Origin: Terriglobales bacterium
GTDB taxonomy: Bacteria > Acidobacteriota > Terriglobia > Bryobacterales > Bryobacteraceae
Direction of reading: 5' to 3'
Length of the DNA: 37,295 nucleotides
Assembly (NCBI GenBank): GCA_027485675.1
Contig: JAIXQP010000039.1
Span: 1-37,295, forward strand
Shown here in pieces: positions 2,369 through 36,851 of the stretch. A program made the translations under genes and the position numbers. Under the pieces are notes generated by a model. The model was not told the origin of the DNA. It saw only the letters and a list, made by a program, of their open reading frames with translations, and did not search any database. Every line of letters starts with the position of its first letter. Position 1 is the stretch's first letter.

Positions 2369-3140
2369 CCGCCGCCAGCCAACCCGCCAAGCCAAAGCCT
2401 CCACCAATCCCGACCCGCTGAACCCCGCACCGGCCAACCCTCCAAGCCAAAGCCTCTTCCCCACAGCGGCCCCAGCCCACCCGGCAGCGGCCCGCCAAGA
2501 GTCTCCACCAAGCCCGACCCACTAAACCCGCACCGGCTCACCAACCCCTATCGCCTTCCGCCGCCAGCCAACCCGCCAAGCCAAAGCCTCCCCCCATCGC
2601 GGTCCCAGCCCACCCGGCAGCGGCCCGCCGGGGCATCGAGCCCCAGCGGCCCGCCAAGAGCCTCCACCAATCCCAACCCGCCAAACTCCGCGCCGACTTA
2701 CCAGCCACTACCGCCTTCCGCCGCCAGCCAACCCGCCAAGCCAAAGCCTCTCCCCCAAAGCGGCCCCAGCCCACCCGGCAGCGGCCCGCCGGGGCATCGA
2801 GCCCCAGCGGCCCGCCAAGAGCCTCCACCAATCCCAACCCGCTGAACCCCGCACCGGCCAACCAACCCCTACCGCCTTCCGCCGCCAGCCAGCCAAGCCA
2901 CAGCATGCCCCCCCACCGCGGTCCCAGCCACCCCGGCAGCGGTCCGCCGGGGCATCGAGCCCCAGCGGCCCGCCAAGAGTCTCCAACAATCCCAACCCGC
3001 TAAACCCCGCGCCGACTTACCAGCCACTACCGCCTGCTGCCACCAGCCCACCCGCCAGCGGTCCGCCGGGGCATCGAGCCCCAGCCGTCCGCCAAGGGTC
3101 TCCCCCAAGCCAACCCACTGAACCCCGTGCCAACCTACCC
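2369..3140. repeat. Tandem array of ~160-base repeats with hairpins
   Basis: This gene-free stretch between the kinase stop and the regulator start is an array of degenerate direct repeats. The block CGCCTTCCGCCGCCAGCC recurs near 2552, 2712 and 2872, with a diverged form near 3031, giving a period of about 160. A perfect hairpin, GGGGC-ATCGA-GCCCC, is unchanged at 2630-2644, 2791-2805, 2949-2963 and 3068-3082 (spacings 161, 158, 119). The first copy, near 2490, lacks the hairpin through a clean deletion between two copies of CGGCCCGCC. The top strand is very C-rich. Frames through it encode only Pro-rich or Gly/Trp-rich low-complexity sequence, so I call it non-coding. It lies in the kinase-to-regulator direction of transcription, so it would be in their RNA if the two are co-transcribed. 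Confidence 0.9.
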
Positions 3141-10743: not shown

Positions 10744-12159
10744 ATGCCTTGCACGGTTGAGCGTTTTGACTTCTGGCCTGTTCTGGCGCCGGATTTTCGG
10801 TTGTTGAATGTTTCGGGTTTGCACGCCCCGTTCACGCCGCGGATTTTGACCCGGTGCACCTTGAGTGATGGTTCGGTGGGATGGGGAGAGGTTCCCTGCA
10901 ACACCGGCGTGATCCGGGTGCTGCGGACAGTCCTGCCGGAGGTGGTGGGAACCGGGATCAGCGCGGAGGAGTCGGCGCGGACGTTGGAGCGGGTGGCGGC
11001 GCGGAGCCGGGAGCTCTCCGCGCAGTTCGCGCTGACCGATGAGCGGGGCTCGGCGACCTTTGACCGGGGCGTGACGAATCACGTGCGGGCGGGGGTGCAG
11101 ATGGCGTTGCATGCCGCGATGGCGCAGCACATGGGAGTGCCGCTGTGCGACCTGCTGGGCGGCGAGAACGGCCGGAAGCGGAATGAGGTCCGGTTCAATC
11201 TGTATCTGTTCTTTTTGGCTGACACGGCGGGGAGTGGGTTGGACTACTCCTATGGCAAGCCGGCGACGCCGCGGAGCGAGTTCGAAGCGCTGCGGGAAAC
11301 CGTCGTGATGGATGCGGCGAGCGCGGTGCGGCTGGCGAAGGCCGGGGTGGCGGAGTTGATGCCCGGCGTGAAGCTCGTGAAATGGAAGCTGGGGGTGTTG
11401 GACCCGCGGGCGGAGTTGGCGGTGATGCTGGCGGTGGCCGAGGCGCTGGGGCCGGCGGTGCAGGTGGTGCCGGATCCGAATGCGGCTTGGGATAACGAGA
11501 CGGCGATTGCGGTGATCCGGGAGTTGAAGGGCGCGATTGGGGAGCAGTTGCCGTACTTCGAGGATCCGGTTGCGGGGCGGGAGAACATGGCGATTGTGCA
11601 CCGGGAGACCGGGGTTCCGCTGGCGACGAACATGTGCGCCGCCAATTTTGAGCAGCACGAAGACGCCGTGCGGAAGAACGCCATTCAGATTACCTTGGGC
11701 GGGGACTGCCACTACATCGGCGGTAGCGATGAGGCGGTGCGGTTGTCGCGGTGGTGCGCGGCGAACGGGATCGGCTTCGCGCAGCATTCGAATACGCATC
11801 TGGGGATTTCCCATGCCCACACGGTGCAGATGGGGGCGGCCGCGGAGACGCATGATTGGCCGTTTGACTCCCATTACTTCCCTTGGCAAGCCGATTTCGA
11901 TCCGGTGGTGAGTGCGCCGATGCCGCTCGAGTTTGGGGGGATCTGCCGGGTGCCGGAGCAGCCGGGTCTGGGCGTGGAGGTGAACTTCGACGGGGTGATG
12001 CAACTGCACGAACTCTATCTGGCGGCGAACCGGAACGGGCGCGCGTATCAGAACCGGGACGATGGGCCAGTGGCGGAGGTGGTCTACGGAGGTTGGGTGC
12101 GGCCGCAGAACCGGGCGCAGAAGTGGTTTTTGGCCGGGGTGCCGCGGGAAGCCCTATAG
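10744..12159 (+). CDS. Glucarate dehydratase-like enolase-superfamily enzyme
   Basis: A 471-residue enzyme of the mandelate racemase/enolase superfamily, best matching D-glucarate dehydratase, which removes water to give 5-keto-4-deoxy-glucarate. Visible catalytic positions: KxK base K213-W-K215, metal ligands D244 (DPN), E273 (FEDP) and N297 (TNMCAANFEQHED), and the His-Asp dyad D321 (GGDCHY) and H348 (AQHSNTHLG). Order and spacing follow the E. coli enzyme with a shift of about 8-9 residues. I take ATG 10744; a TTG sits just before it. No transporter or downstream sugar-acid aldolase is adjacent. It overlaps the convergent phosphofructokinase by six bases. A related acid-sugar dehydratase is possible. 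Confidence 0.88.
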   Translation: MPCTVERFDFWPVLAPDFRLLNVSGLHAPFTPRILTRCTLSDGSVGWGEVPCNTGVIRVLRTVLPEVVGTGISAEESARTLERVAARSRELSAQFALTDERGSATFDRGVTNHVRAGVQMALHAAMAQHMGVPLCDLLGGENGRKRNEVRFNLYLFFLADTAGSGLDYSYGKPATPRSEFEALRETVVMDAASAVRLAKAGVAELMPGVKLVKWKLGVLDPRAELAVMLAVAEALGPAVQVVPDPNAAWDNETAIAVIRELKGAIGEQLPYFEDPVAGRENMAIVHRETGVPLATNMCAANFEQHEDAVRKNAIQITLGGDCHYIGGSDEAVRLSRWCAANGIGFAQHSNTHLGISHAHTVQMGAAAETHDWPFDSHYFPWQADFDPVVSAPMPLEFGGICRVPEQPGLGVEVNFDGVMQLHELYLAANRNGRAYQNRDDGPVAEVVYGGWVRPQNRAQKWFLAGVPREAL

Positions 12160-13293
12160 CGTTGGCCAGGGGTCGATCGCGCCGGCTAGCGGGGCCGCGT
12201 AGCGGAGGAACTCGAGCGTCACGTTGTTGCCGCCCGGGGCGATCCACTCCCGGGGAACCAGGCGTTCGAAACCCGCGACGCGGGCAAGAGGCACCGTCGC
12301 GGTATCCCCCGTTTCCGTCAGGCCGATCATCACGCCCGATTCGCCGCGTTCGACGGCCTGGACGGCATCGAAGCCGCAACGGTAGGAGGCCTGGGCGTCC
12401 GCCGCTGAGACCGCGAACGAGCAGGACCGGCCGAGCAGACCTGGCTTTTCACTGCGGACGCGCAGACCGGTGGCTTGGCTGATGGCGCGGGCCAGGGTGT
12501 GAGCCAGGTTGCTGGGCAGTTCGTGCCGCTGGTCGCCGGCGCGGTCGAGATCGGCGCCGAAGGGCCGGCCCTGCGGGTCGCGGAGGCCTTCGCAGACGGC
12601 GACCACCACCCGGCCGAGGCGCGCGTAGACGGCTTGGACATCGGCGCAGATCTGGTCGAGAGCCGGCGGACATTCCGGGAGATAGATCAGGTGGGGCGCG
12701 TCGTCCGGACGGGAGCGGGCGAGCGCCGTGGCGCCCACGACCCAACCGGCGTTGCGGCCGATCACCTCGACGATGGTGACCGGCGAGGGGAGGGCGCGAT
12801 TGTCGGCGCCGATGTCGCGGACGGCTTGGGCGTAGAAGCGGGCGGCGGAGCCGAAGCCGGGGCAGTGGTGGGTGCCGAGCAGATCGTTGTCGACGGTCTT
12901 GGGTACGCCGGCGACGAGAAGTTCGCCGGATTGATGGGCGAGGTAGGCGGTCTTCATGGTGCCGTTGCCGCCGGTGAAGAAGATGGCGCCGACTCCCTGG
13001 TCCCGGCAGCGGGCGATGGCCGGGCCGAGGTGTGTGTGGTCGAAGGGTTTACGGCTGGATCCGAGGACCGAGCCGGGGGCGCGGCGGATTTCGGCGAGGA
13101 GGCTGGACGGCAGGGCGGAGAGGTCGAGCCAATCGTTGGTGAGCAGGCCGTGGGCGCCGCCGCGGGCGCCGTAGAGGCGGCGAATCCGGTTGGAGGCGCG
13201 GCAGGCGTCGATGAGGCCGACGAGGCTCGCGTTGAGAACGGCGGTGGGTCCGCCGCCATGGACGACGATGGCGGCGTCCCAGAGATCGTTCAT
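12154..13293 (-). CDS. Phosphofructokinase family (ATP- or PPi-dependent)
   Basis: A 379-residue PfkA-superfamily kinase phosphorylating fructose 6-phosphate or a similar sugar phosphate. Motifs: GGGPTAVLN (13-21), phosphoryl-donor site GGNGTMKT (108-115), catalytic PKTVDND (131-137) and GRNAGW (179-184). The donor motifs are mixed. The Gly after GGN is the residue usual in ATP enzymes, Lys132 before TVDND is usual in pyrophosphate enzymes, and Asn110 stands where ATP enzymes have Asp. The donor therefore cannot be assigned from sequence. It is convergent with the glucarate dehydratase; the region upstream of its start is the 13.3 kb repeat array. Confidence 0.88.
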   Translation of the reverse strand: MNDLWDAAIVVHGGGPTAVLNASLVGLIDACRASNRIRRLYGARGGAHGLLTNDWLDLSALPSSLLAEIRRAPGSVLGSSRKPFDHTHLGPAIARCRDQGVGAIFFTGGNGTMKTAYLAHQSGELLVAGVPKTVDNDLLGTHHCPGFGSAARFYAQAVRDIGADNRALPSPVTIVEVIGRNAGWVVGATALARSRPDDAPHLIYLPECPPALDQICADVQAVYARLGRVVVAVCEGLRDPQGRPFGADLDRAGDQRHELPSNLAHTLARAISQATGLRVRSEKPGLLGRSCSFAVSAADAQASYRCGFDAVQAVERGESGVMIGLTETGDTATVPLARVAGFERLVPREWIAPGGNNVTLEFLRYAAPLAGAIDPWPTL

Positions 13294-13329
13294 TCTTCAC
13301 GAGTACCACGACGGGTAGGGGCAGAGCGG

Positions 13330-14322
13330 CAAGTGCGGCGTCGGGACCTTCGGGGTGGGGGGCTGCTTTTCGGGCCGGCGCGTGAACTCCGGCGCCACCC
13401 GGGACCTGTTCCTTCGCCAGTCAGGAGGCGAGCTAGTACAGCCGCTGGTGCCGCCGCCGCCGAATACGGGTCTGAATGCAGTGGCTACTGCGGCGTCGGG
13501 ACCTTCGGAGCGGCTGGGTTACTGTTCGGGCCGGGGCATGAACTCCGGCGCCATACGGGACCGGTTCCTTCGCCAGTCAGGACGCGACTGTCTGATCAGG
13601 AAGATCCCGTGGCAGCCGAGCTAAAGGTCGCTCCATTCGCCGGCGAGGCCGCCGCGGGCGGCGTCGAATACAGGTCTGGATGCAGTGGCTACGGCGGCGT
13701 CGGGACCGTCGGAGCGGCTGGGTTACTGTTCGGGCCGGGGCATGAACTCCGGCGCCGTCCGGGACCGGTTCCTTCGCCCGGCAGTAGGCGACTGCCTGAT
13801 CAGGAAGATTCCGTGGCAGCCGGCCTACAGGTCGCTCCATTAGCCGGCGAGGCCGCCGCGGGCGGCGTCGAATACGAGTCTGGGTGCAGTGACTACGGCG
13901 GCGCCGGGACCTTCGGAGCGGGGGCCTGCTGTTCGGGCCAGTGCGTGAACCCCGGCGCCATCCGGGAGCGATTCCTTCGCCAGTCAGTAGGCGACTGCCT
14001 GATCAGGAAGATCCCGTGGCTGCCGAGCTAAAGGGCTCGGCATTCGCAGGCGAGGCCGCCGCGGGCTGGTGTTCGGGCCAGCGCGTGAACCCCGGCGCCA
14101 TCCGGGACTGGTTCCTTTGCCAGCCAGGAGGCGAACTCCCTGACCCGGAAGCGCCTGTGCCAGCCGAGCTAAAGGTCGAGCCATACGCCGGCGAGGCCGC
14201 CGCGGGCCGGTGTTCGGGCCAGCGCGTGAACCCCGGCGCCATCCGGGACTGGTTCCTTTGCCAGTCAGGAGGCGAGGTCGTACAGCCGCGGGTGCCGCCG
14301 AATATGGGTCTGGATGCAGTGG
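13330..14322. repeat. Array of copies of the glycosyltransferase 3' end
   Basis: A kilobase without a gene, made of at least six degenerate copies of the 3' end of the glycosyltransferase at 14323-15171. The anchor CCGGCGCC occurs at 13389, 13545, 13749, 13952, 14092 and 14233, and in the gene at 14393 (spacings 156, 204, 203, 140, 141, 160). Copies include the segment around the gene's stop (compare TGCAGTGGCTACTGCGGCGT). Several also carry a second segment, CAGCCGAGCT with its flanks, that matches coding bases ~14487-14525, with the ~50 bases between deleted. Read on the minus strand, copies still give peptide traces of the parent (KEPVPDGAGVHAPARTV versus KETVRDGAGVYALARAV). Frames are broken between copies. 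Long open frames across the array are by-products of GC content. Confidence 0.85.
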
Positions 14323-15171
14323 CTACTGCGGCGTCGGGACCTTCGGGGCGGGGGTCTGCTGTTCCTTTACCGCTCGGGCCAGCGCATAGACGCCGGCGCC
14401 ATCCCGGACCGTTTCCTTCGCCGGTAAGGAGGCGAGATAGTCCGGCCAAAGCGTCCGCTCGCGGACCACCAGGCCGAGCCGGTACTCCCAGACCAGGAAG
14501 ATCATGCGCCAGCCGAGCTTCCAGGCCTTCCAGAGACTGCCCGTGACCGACGATTCGCCGACCCTTGCCCGGTAGTTCAGGGGAATCTCGACGAACGGCA
14601 CCTGATGGGCCAACATCTCCAACAAAATCTGCGGGCCAAAGTGGGAGCCGCGAATAGTGAGGTGGGGGCGCAGGAGCTTGGCGGCTTCGCGGGAGATCAG
14701 GCGGTGGGTACAGCCCATATCCGTCAAAATCGTCGTGTTGAACAGGAGCTCCGTCATCTTGGCGACCGCCCAGTTGCCCCAGCGGAGAAATAAACCCATG
14801 TTCGCGCCACGCCAGATGAACTGCCGGCTGGTGCGGGTGCCGAGAACCACCGGGACGTCGTCTGAATAGGCCAGCAGCTTGGGCACGTCCAGGCCGCTGA
14901 AGGTGCCGTCGGGCTCCGAGAAGATGATGAGTTCAGCGTCGGTGTTATCGAGCCCACAGAGCAGCGCGCTGCCATAACCCTGGCGGCGTTCAAAGATCTC
15001 GCGCGCTCCGGTGCCGGCAACCTCCTCCGAGGTGCCCGCGGCGGCGTTGTTATTGACGACGATGACCTCATCGACGAGACCCGTCGAGAAGTACTCGAGT
15101 ATCGACTCCCGAATGGAATCCTTTTCGTTGTAAGTCGGAAAGATGACCGCGACTTTCTTGCCCCGATGCAT
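14323..15171 (-). CDS. GT2 glycosyltransferase, dolichyl-phosphate-mannose-synthase-like
   Basis: A 282-residue GT2 enzyme: VAVIFPTYNEKDSI at the start, VIVVNNNAAAGTSE for nucleotide binding, ERRQGYGSALLCGLD, and EPDGTF in place of a strict DxD. It resembles enzymes that move a sugar from a nucleotide to a polyprenyl phosphate. A hydrophobic segment, WRMIFLVWEYRLGLVV, lies near the C-terminus. I chose ATG 15171 because it overlaps the methyltransferase stop (TAATG) and the fold begins there; the longer frame to 15252 is an artefact. The last ~40 residues (after RERTLW) fall outside the GT domain and are the part repeated in the downstream array. It is the last gene of a three-gene operon. Confidence 0.9.
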   Translation of the reverse strand: MHRGKKVAVIFPTYNEKDSIRESILEYFSTGLVDEVIVVNNNAAAGTSEEVAGTGAREIFERRQGYGSALLCGLDNTDAELIIFSEPDGTFSGLDVPKLLAYSDDVPVVLGTRTSRQFIWRGANMGLFLRWGNWAVAKMTELLFNTTILTDMGCTHRLISREAAKLLRPHLTIRGSHFGPQILLEMLAHQVPFVEIPLNYRARVGESSVTGSLWKAWKLGWRMIFLVWEYRLGLVVRERTLWPDYLASLPAKETVRDGAGVYALARAVKEQQTPAPKVPTPQ

Positions 15172-34878: not shown

Positions 34879-36420
34879 ATGTTTCCCCATAAAGCAAAAC
34901 AACCGACGACACGACGGGAGGCCCTCCGCCGGATTGGGAACGGGTTCGGCATGATGGCCTTCGCGGGCATGATCGGCGATTCGGTGGCCCGGGCCGGCGG
35001 CATTTCGGGACCGGACGGGCAGATGGTCTCCTATCAGCTCGACCACCCGGCGAAGGTGAAGCGGGTGATTTTCCTGTTCATGAACGGCGGCTGTTCGGCG
35101 ATCGACAGCTTTGACCCGAAGCCGGCGCTCGACAAGTACGATGGCAAGCCGATGCCCGGCGGCGGGATCAAGACCGAGCGCCGAACCGGCGAGCTGATGC
35201 GGTCTCCGTATACGTTCAAGAAGTACGGCCAGTGCGGCATGGACCTGAGCGAACTGTGGCCGAACCTGGGCGAAGTGGCCGATGACATCTGCTGGGTACG
35301 GTCGGTCTACACGGAGATCCCGAACCATGAGCCGGCGTGCCTGATGATGAACACGGGCGCCAACCAGGCGGGCCGGCCGGCGATCGGTTCGTGGCTGACC
35401 TATGGGTTAGGCACGGAGAACAAGAGCCTGCCGGGCTTCGTGGTGTTGTGCCCGACGGTGCCGACGACGGTGGGTTCGCCGCTGTGGAGCAACGGATTCC
35501 TGCCGGCGATCAACCAGGGGACTTACATCTCTTCGCGGATTCAGACGCGGCCGGGCGCGGAGGAGGAGCCGCCGATGCCGGCCGCCGACGCGAAGGAGGA
35601 GAAGGACAAGGACGGGAAGGTGAAGAAGAAGCCCGTGAAGGTGGAGGCGGCCTTTGACCCGAAGAAGCTGGTGAGCCACGTCAACAACCCGAAGTTCGAG
35701 TTGACGGAGCAGCGGCGGGAGCTGACGCTGCTCGAGAACCTGGAGAAGATCAAGGCGGAGACCACCGGGCAGGATCAGCAGGTGGAAGCGGTGATGAAGT
35801 CGATGGAGATCGCCTACCGGATGCAGACGGAGGCGCCGGAGGTGTTCGATATCCGGAAGGAGTCGCAGGCGACGCTCGACCTGTACGGGGAAGGGACGAC
35901 GGCGCGGGGCTGCTTGCAGGCGGTGCGGCTGGTGGAGAAAGGCGTGCGGATGGTGCAGGTGTACTATTCGAGCGGCGACCCGTGGGATGCGCACGGCGAC
36001 ATCATGGCGCACAAGACGAACGCGAAGAATTCGGATCAGCCGTTTGCGGCGGTGATCAAGGATTTGAAGCAGCGTGGGTTGTGGAAGGATACGCTGGTGG
36101 TTTGCGGGTCGGAGTTTGGCCGGACGCCGGTGCGGGAAGTGGGCGGCGGCGGTGGCAGCGTGAAGAAGGGCCGGGATCACAATCCGTTTGGCTTCACGAT
36201 GTGGCTGGCCGGCGGCGCCGTGAAGGGCGGGACGATCTATGGGGCGACGGACGAATTCGGCTTCAAGGCCGTGGAGAAGCCGGCGCACGTGCACGACATT
36301 CACGCGACGATTCTGCATTTGATGGGGATCGACCATACGAAGTTGACGTACCGGTATAGCGGTCGGGACTTCCGGTTGACGGACGTGCACGGGAATGTGC
36401 TGCACGAGTTGATCGCGTAG
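34879..36420 (+). CDS. DUF1501 exported protein (paralogue 3)
   Basis: A 513-residue DUF1501 protein. A strong AGGAGGA lies eight bases before ATG 34879. The Tat-like signal TTRREALRRIGNGFG is less canonical than in the other two. The first family motif is altered: MNGGCSAIDSFDPKP where the others have GGPSQ. A charged Lys/Glu insertion (AKEEKDKDGKVKKKPVKVE), absent from the other two, follows near residue 240, before the helical middle part. Late motifs are normal: GSEFGRTPV, GRDHNPFGFTMWLAGG and IDHTKLTYRYSGRDFRLTDV. Function unknown. The last ~36 codons and ~130 bases of downstream DNA are duplicated immediately after the gene. Confidence 0.92.
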   Translation: MFPHKAKQPTTRREALRRIGNGFGMMAFAGMIGDSVARAGGISGPDGQMVSYQLDHPAKVKRVIFLFMNGGCSAIDSFDPKPALDKYDGKPMPGGGIKTERRTGELMRSPYTFKKYGQCGMDLSELWPNLGEVADDICWVRSVYTEIPNHEPACLMMNTGANQAGRPAIGSWLTYGLGTENKSLPGFVVLCPTVPTTVGSPLWSNGFLPAINQGTYISSRIQTRPGAEEEPPMPAADAKEEKDKDGKVKKKPVKVEAAFDPKKLVSHVNNPKFELTEQRRELTLLENLEKIKAETTGQDQQVEAVMKSMEIAYRMQTEAPEVFDIRKESQATLDLYGEGTTARGCLQAVRLVEKGVRMVQVYYSSGDPWDAHGDIMAHKTNAKNSDQPFAAVIKDLKQRGLWKDTLVVCGSEFGRTPVREVGGGGGSVKKGRDHNPFGFTMWLAGGAVKGGTIYGATDEFGFKAVEKPAHVHDIHATILHLMGIDHTKLTYRYSGRDFRLTDVHGNVLHELIA

Positions 36421-36851
36421 CGCGGTAGAAATGGCGCTGCTGGGCCTCTAACGGGCCGGGGAGCGATTTTGAAGGGCTGGTTGGCGCTCTCGGGCTCCGC
36501 CGGCCCTTACTGCTTTCGGAAGCGGTTCGGCGGTTTTCGAGATCCGGCGGTTCTGCCCCTGATGAGGATCGACCAGTCGAAGCTGAGCGGCCGGGATTAC
36601 CGGTTGGCGGACGTGCGCGGGAATGTGTTGCACGAGTCGATCGCGTAGCGCGGTAGAAATGGCGCTGCTGGGCTTCTAACGGGCCTGGGACCGATTGTAA
36701 AGGGGCTGGCTGCTGCTCTCAGGCGCCGCCGGCCCTATTCGCTTTCGGGCGCGGTTCGGCGATTTGCGGCGGTGCCAAGGCGGGAGATGTCCGCGGGGAA
36801 TGCCAATTTTTGGCTGAGAATCGGCGCTGAGACGATCTGCGGTGGGACCGG
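36311..36851. repeat. Tandem duplication of the DUF1501 gene tail and 3' flank
   Basis: Unit 1 (36311 to ~36550) holds the real gene end plus ~130 bases of flank. Unit 2 (36551 to ~36780) repeats both. Just after the stop, GGTAGAAATGGCGCTGCTGG occurs at 36423 and 36651 and is followed by CTAACGGGCC in both. The offset is 240 before, and 228 after, a 12-base deletion. Near 36780-36801, GAGATGTCCGCGGGGAATG resembles the same gene end again and may be a third, worn partial copy. I see no independent gene between 36421 and 36851. Confidence 0.85.
36551..36648 (+). pseudogene. Duplicated C-terminal fragment of the DUF1501 gene
   Basis: This stretch repeats bases 36311-36420, the last ~36 codons of the gene just upstream, with a 12-base in-frame deletion. 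It remains open in the parental frame and reads MRIDQSKLSGRDYRLADV then RGNVLHESIA and a stop, against MGIDHTKLTYRYSGRDFRL etc. in the parent. It has no start, signal or catalytic part and cannot act as a DUF1501 protein on its own. Confidence 0.85.

Follow-up and report, generated by a model that had tools for sequence, protein, structure and literature searches.

The question raised by this locus is how about 1 kb of repeated DNA came to lie directly behind a glycosyltransferase gene, and whether the repeats do anything there. The window, by which we mean the whole 37,295-nt stretch of DNA that was analysed, is contig 26 of the source genome, labelled G000 (6.59 Mb, 54 contigs). The minus strand carries, in this order, a 509-aa protein, a methyltransferase, the GT2 glycosyltransferase, the array and the phosphofructokinase-family gene (Table 1); the 509-aa protein, which lies upstream of the methyltransferase, gave no match in a Pfam scan. 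A preliminary description of this DNA had offered three roles for the repeats: slippage debris, a structure in the 3' untranslated region (3'UTR), and a donor store for changing the C-terminus of the enzyme. The first of these fits our results. The array is very probably a decayed, non-coding and neutral tandem duplication that started from DNA spanning the 3' end of the glycosyltransferase gene. No function is needed to explain it, and it may slightly influence the gene that follows.

Table 1. Positions of the genes and repeat units discussed, numbered from the first nucleotide of the window.
Feature	Position	Strand	Details
GT2 glycosyltransferase gene, source of the repeated tail	14323..15171	-	ORF; 282 aa; PF00535, E 5e-14
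Phosphofructokinase-family gene, downstream of the array	12154..13293	-	PF00365
U0, first unit of the series	14275..14435	-	Tail of the gene itself (its final ~113 nt, TAG included) + 48 nt past the stop
U1	14135..14274	-	140 nt; without stop-codon block
U2	13995..14134	-	140 nt; without stop-codon block
U3	13792..13994	-	203 nt; full, with stop block and internal-gene block
U4	13588..13791	-	204 nt; full, with stop block and internal-gene block
U5	13431..13587	-	157 nt; stop block present, most of internal-gene block absent
U6, last unit	13294..13430	-	137 nt; stop codon altered; reaches the start of the next gene
Gene-tail duplication (final ~115 nt of the gene that ends at 36420, plus ~119 nt; one extra copy)	36305..36768	+	Period 240, 80% identical
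Third array of the window, between histidine kinase and response regulator genes	2485..3139		TRF periods 161 and 119; degenerate

Anatomy of the array

The array proper occupies ~13294-14322, between the glycosyltransferase and phosphofructokinase-family genes. Of the span first proposed, 13330-14525, the upper part, 14323-14525, is the gene itself. A repeat search placed a 74-nt reference in seven copies from 13370 to 14447, six of them in the array and one in the gene tail, and TRF reported periods of 204 (3.0 copies) and 141 (2.5 copies).

The claim of at least six degenerate units derived from the 3' part of the gene was borne out: there are six units, and the real score of the tail block was reached in none of 500 dinucleotide shuffles for each of U1, U3, U4, U5 and U6. 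When the gene is compared with the downstream 1022 nt by blastn, gene nucleotides 725-845 align over 121 nt with 77% identity (E 1e-22). The units therefore do copy the last ~110 coding bases, as had been stated, but the stop codon that was thought to come with them is retained as TAG only in U3, U4 and U5 (3/6); U1 and U2 are without its block, and it is altered in U6. A second, internal stretch of the gene (nucleotides ~653-688) gave four matches in the same comparison, the best being 36 nt long and 83% identical (E 7e-6). Here the real score was reached in 0, 0, 3 and 1 of 1000 shuffles for U1, U2, U3 and U4, respectively. The preliminary description was thus right about an internal stretch, but its match is weaker than that of the tail, and the block is found in four of the six units (U1-U4).

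Gene nucleotides ~737-798 are copied in every unit, and U3-U6 extend to ~845-849. Some 46-48 nt between the two matched gene stretches are absent from the units, in agreement with the ~50 deleted bases reported before. The reported unit lengths (~140, ~156 and ~203 nt) are likewise close to those in Table 1, and the length classes correspond to the presence or absence of two blocks: the stop block, which U1 and U2 lack, and the internal block, which is absent or reduced in U5 and U6. Every unit has lost the same 11 nt, which shifts the reading frame; the gene retains them. Adjacent units are for the most part each other's closest match (U1-U2, 123/139 identical; U3-U4, 178/203; U4-U5, 135/157), with the exception of U5-U6 (102/137), as U6 is not closest to its neighbour.

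Direction and age of the duplication

The duplication ran from gene to array after the split from G017, the closest relative compared. Shared deletions point to a single founder, and the array has changed in length and is under no coding constraint. G017 has the same gene order as G000, with protein identities of 93% for the glycosyltransferase and 79% for the phosphofructokinase-family protein. The gap between the two genes is ~45 nt in G017 and contains no array and no self-repeats. At the 37 coding sites that differ between the orthologues, the unit consensus agrees with the gene of G000 at 32, with that of G017 at two, and with neither at three. The units carry the bases of their own genome's gene, which confirms the gene-to-array direction suggested earlier, dates the transfer to after the split from G017, and makes it unlikely that the array is ancestral and was lost in G017.

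Between G000 and G017, 147 of 283 third codon positions of the glycosyltransferase gene differ. The unit consensus departs from the gene at 11 of 102 compared coding positions, so that the duplication seems to postdate the split. The 11 differences are spread evenly across the codon positions (3/4/4). Given that the 11-nt deletion occurs in all six units, the simplest account is that a single founder copy decayed and then multiplied. The first copy would have arisen by replication slippage or template switching, and the later ones by slippage or unequal crossing-over. The array may have persisted because a duplication across the stop codon spares the upstream gene and stays out of the next one, leaving both neighbours intact. 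The array shows the birth of a spacer in a compact bacterial genome, from ~45 nt (as in G017) to 1 kb, by the copying of a gene end.

A search for arrays after orthologues, which had been suggested as a check, did not turn up arrayed tail copies after the gene at any of 80 homologous loci (of 205 found; seven of the 80 have less than 500 nt downstream). Two of these loci, L091 and L118, each have a single weak tail match (E ~1e-5), and in a third, L065, an unrelated array lies 1.9 kb further on. Within the genus, array DNA was found in one of 19 genomes, which is its own; some of the 19 are only 58-83% complete. At the start of a contig of another genome (G006, L039:139-306), we observed a match to residues 227-282 of the glycosyltransferase only, at 63% identity; the gene is probably cut there by the contig edge.

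Duplicated gene ends elsewhere in the genome

Scars of this kind are also present at the 3' ends of other, unrelated genes of G000, with sequences that are unrelated to each other. The glycosyltransferase array is one of several and is ordinary in kind. We sampled 1.22 Mb of G000 including the window (18% of the genome), 0.64 Mb of G017, and from the further relatives 0.37 Mb of G003 and 0.15 Mb of G016 and G025 together, calling genes in the sampled stretches with our own codon-usage caller. The last or first 200 nt of each gene were searched for a copy of at least 50 bits within 1.5 kb downstream (tails) or upstream (heads), respectively. Tail copies were found behind 12 of 878 genes in G000, 3/451 in G017, 0/222 in G003, 0/28 in G016 and 0/45 in G025; the corresponding numbers for heads are 1/885, 1/447, 0/231, 0/29 and 0/45.

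The excess of tails over heads in G000 (12/878 versus 1/885) has a p value of 0.0017. If L203, which is a separated and not a tandem copy, is dropped and the L171 pair is counted once, the numbers become 10 versus 1 (p 0.006). Locus L181 abuts a contig edge and its gene is cut there; treating it as a 5'-end case gives 9 versus 2 (p 0.065), and removing it 9 versus 1 (p 0.021). The tail rate of G000 is not significantly different from that of G017 (p 0.41) or of the four relatives pooled (p 0.065). Twenty internal stretches of G000 contain tail copies behind 3 of 308 genes (one being L203) and head copies before 0 of 312. The tail scan overlooked the case at 36305-36768, which was recovered by a scan for tandem clusters.

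This second scan found 36 clusters of any identity in G000: 14 at a 3' end, two at a 5' end, two at a 5' end together with the whole gene, one at both ends, 10 inside genes and seven intergenic. In G017 there are eight (six inside genes, one intergenic, one at both ends), in G003 three (two inside genes, one intergenic), and in the 0.15 Mb of G016 and G025 none. Clusters that straddle a 3' end with at least 70% identity, L181 left out, number nine in 1.22 Mb of G000 and zero in 1.16 Mb of the four relatives (p 0.004); with the window excluded, the comparison is 7 versus 0 (p 0.016). TRF arrays of period 50 or more, near contig starts, number 10 in 0.78 Mb of G000 and zero in 0.44 Mb of G017. 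The first sampled batches lie near contig starts, where repeats gather. In internal stretches there are two such arrays in 0.40 Mb of G000 and one in 0.20 Mb of G017, or 5 per Mb each, albeit from small numbers; the excess in G000 may therefore partly be a contig-end effect.

Ten of the genes concerned were scanned against Pfam, and the eight with a match are mutually unrelated (AcrB-type, SMC, HAD, GT9, cytochrome P450, isocitrate/isopropylmalate dehydrogenase, VWA and a sub-threshold DUF6798). The clearest examples have a cleanly repeated segment: behind the isocitrate/isopropylmalate dehydrogenase gene, ~230 nt from -183 to +46 about the stop occur three times with 94% identity, and behind a 509-aa gene in the sampled stretches 165 nt occur ~3 times with 93% identity. 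The duplication at 36305-36768 includes the stop codon and is absent from G017. The protein encoded by 34879-36420, which may be DUF1501-like, gave 115 rows of matches in G017, with several rows to a gene, and so comes from a large paralogous family.

The third array of the window, at 2485-3139, lines up with G017 on both sides, G017 being ~770 nt shorter. We rejected it as a tail array: the kinase gene gives no match, but the sequence at and just before the regulator gene does. A cluster of 61% identity over this region was labelled as 3'-end and was left out of the counts that require at least 70% identity.

The seven arrays compared with G017, a non-random choice, are the three in the window and four others among the clearer ones (L210, L176, L123 and L218; L130, L141, L142, L166, L171 and L203 are not among them). 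None of the seven is present in G017. For six of them, the DNA on either side of the array can be aligned with G017. Behind L123 the flank fails to line up, and G017 has a weak, distant repeat there (66%, E 9e-5). With a close relative that is without any of the seven arrays, it becomes measurable how often tandem duplications occur in this group and where they lie. The glycosyltransferase locus itself is ordinary debris. At L171:14406-15411, a segment of ~300 nt between convergent genes is in tandem, with the ends of both genes partly copied. The long intergenic arrays at L177:6083-7086 and L182:119-1303 are complex, combine several periods (66-209 nt) and do not overlap called genes.

Two explanations for the preponderance of 3' ends have to be weighed. 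Either duplications occur at random and selection removes those that damage genes, or the lineage has a process directed at 3' ends that duplicates stop codons too, for instance at sites of transcription termination or where transcripts converge, and that leaves arrays behind about one gene in 100. The excess of tails over heads and the 3'-end clusters of at least 70% identity, seen in G000 and in none of the relatives with or without the window, are what such a process would produce. However, a selection filter gives the same bias, the tail rates of G000 and G017 are not significantly different, the internal TRF densities of the two genomes are equal, and G017 also has a diverged tail repeat (L227, 63%). 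Tails are over-represented in convergent pairs (6/238, versus 4/609 in co-directional pairs; p 0.034, with L171 counted twice and L203 included); with L171 counted once and L203 dropped, the counts are 5 and 3. It is in such pairs that a selection filter would most readily let duplications survive. The period is divisible by three in 17 of 18 clusters inside genes (G000, G017 and G003) but in only 4 of 13 3'-end clusters (any identity, L181 left out), as a selection filter would give, although this test is soft, as many of the within-gene clusters have identities of no more than 57-65% and may reflect protein repeats or alignments driven by codon composition. We prefer a selection filter acting on random duplication, which needs nothing new, and regard a directed process as unlikely. 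The repair genes recJ, mutS1 and xseA are all present in G000, so the simple loss of these is not behind a high duplication rate.

Possible roles of the array and known systems

No hidden coding sequence is present in the array on either strand, as the mean codon log-odds score is ~ -0.18 to -0.19 in all six frames, compared to +0.24 for the gene. A structured RNA element in the 3'UTR, which would set mRNA stability or uncouple the next gene, is decidedly improbable. The array does occupy what is a ~45-nt spacer in G017, and its GC-rich sequence makes strong folds; the best-folding unit, U2, reaches a z-score of -2.10 against shuffles and is more stably folded than most of them. The other four folded stretches have z-scores of -1.01 (U1, folded whole like U2) and of -0.81, 0.46 and -1.47 (parts of U0, U3 and U5), and an Rfam search of the array gave nothing near a gathering score, two matches to a plastid intron model (21.5 bits, cut-off 65.5; E 0.14) being rejected as a known RNA family. 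The anatomy of the units also differs by large deletions, and the array sequence occurs in none of the 18 other genomes of the genus. There are no sigma-70-type promoter-like sites in the array on either strand. Four terminator-like sites (0.5 expected) are all on the strand opposite to the gene and none is on the gene strand, which speaks against a promoter or terminator role. The excess of these sites, the fold of U2 and the poor match of U6 to its neighbour are points against the neutral duplication that we favour. The 3'UTR role proposed in the preliminary description found no positive evidence.

The donor-store proposal, in which the array returns sequence to the glycosyltransferase gene and so varies the C-terminus, fared worse, and we consider it very improbable. 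In its favour, the units are in direct orientation immediately behind the gene, and U5 hardly differs from the gene in the last coding bases and the stop. Against it, the 11-nt deletion common to all units is absent from the gene, the unit translations are frameshifted and several contain stops, and the homologous genes surveyed above have no tail-copy array. Silent cassettes can be joined in frame to the expressed gene, which the shared deletion and the lack of a codon score argue against here, and they convert it. The gene tail bears no conversion track, its identity to the unit consensus being 49/57, 42/45 and 30/35 in three successive parts (one genome against one relative), and the gene aligns with the G017 orthologue through the C-terminus. 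Finally, a dispersed repeat family or mobile element inserted behind the gene can be dismissed as extremely improbable: although the array counts as an insertion when compared with G017, it is built from the neighbouring gene's own sequence, occurs in 0/18 other genus genomes at E 0.001, and was found at one place in its own genome, in a repeat search in which 40/90 and 27/86 first-look candidates were scored.

We are thus left with a decayed tandem duplication of the gene end, and its place among known repeats can be considered. That the same repeat family might occur genome-wide, which had been named as a possible objection, is not what we found, the sequence having turned up at no other place among the candidates scored. 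The array is accordingly not an element present at many intergenic sites, as those of the MIRU/REP type are, and its head-to-tail direct copies at a single, non-dispersed locus make it a probable minisatellite or intergenic tandem repeat. It resembles bacterial minisatellites and variable-number tandem repeats (VNTRs) in having direct, head-to-tail, non-coding units that are lineage-specific and change length in the manner of slippage or recombination. It differs from them in that the units are long (137-204 nt), degenerate and partly made of the upstream gene's coding end.

The E. coli tyrT operon has 178-bp repeats, associated with rtT RNA, in tandem behind the gene, and each unit contains a copy of the gene's 3' end. 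The gene in this case is a tRNA gene, and the repeats are transcribed. Both loci have tandem copies of a gene's 3' end directly behind the gene, but here a protein gene is the source, the copies have frameshifting deletions, and an RNA product is only hypothetical. A looser parallel is provided by the cassettes of CDI/Rhs and maf systems, which keep their reading frames and encode variant toxin ends. They, too, are C-terminal gene parts near a full gene, whereas the units described here are non-coding copies of one enzyme's tail. Excerpts of the respective papers describe orphan C-terminal cassettes in CDI/Rhs systems (PMC3150448) and for the maf toxins of Neisseria (PMC4287609).

Among openly licensed papers, as represented by titles and the beginnings of abstracts, we found no description of gene-tail arrays of this kind. 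Gene-tail repeats are likewise not mentioned in excerpts of three papers on related subjects, which report that a Solibacter genome has many short repeats (PMC3174227), treat small variable segments and minisatellites (PMC2884548), and note that repeat units in coding regions tend toward multiples of three (PMC4679880).
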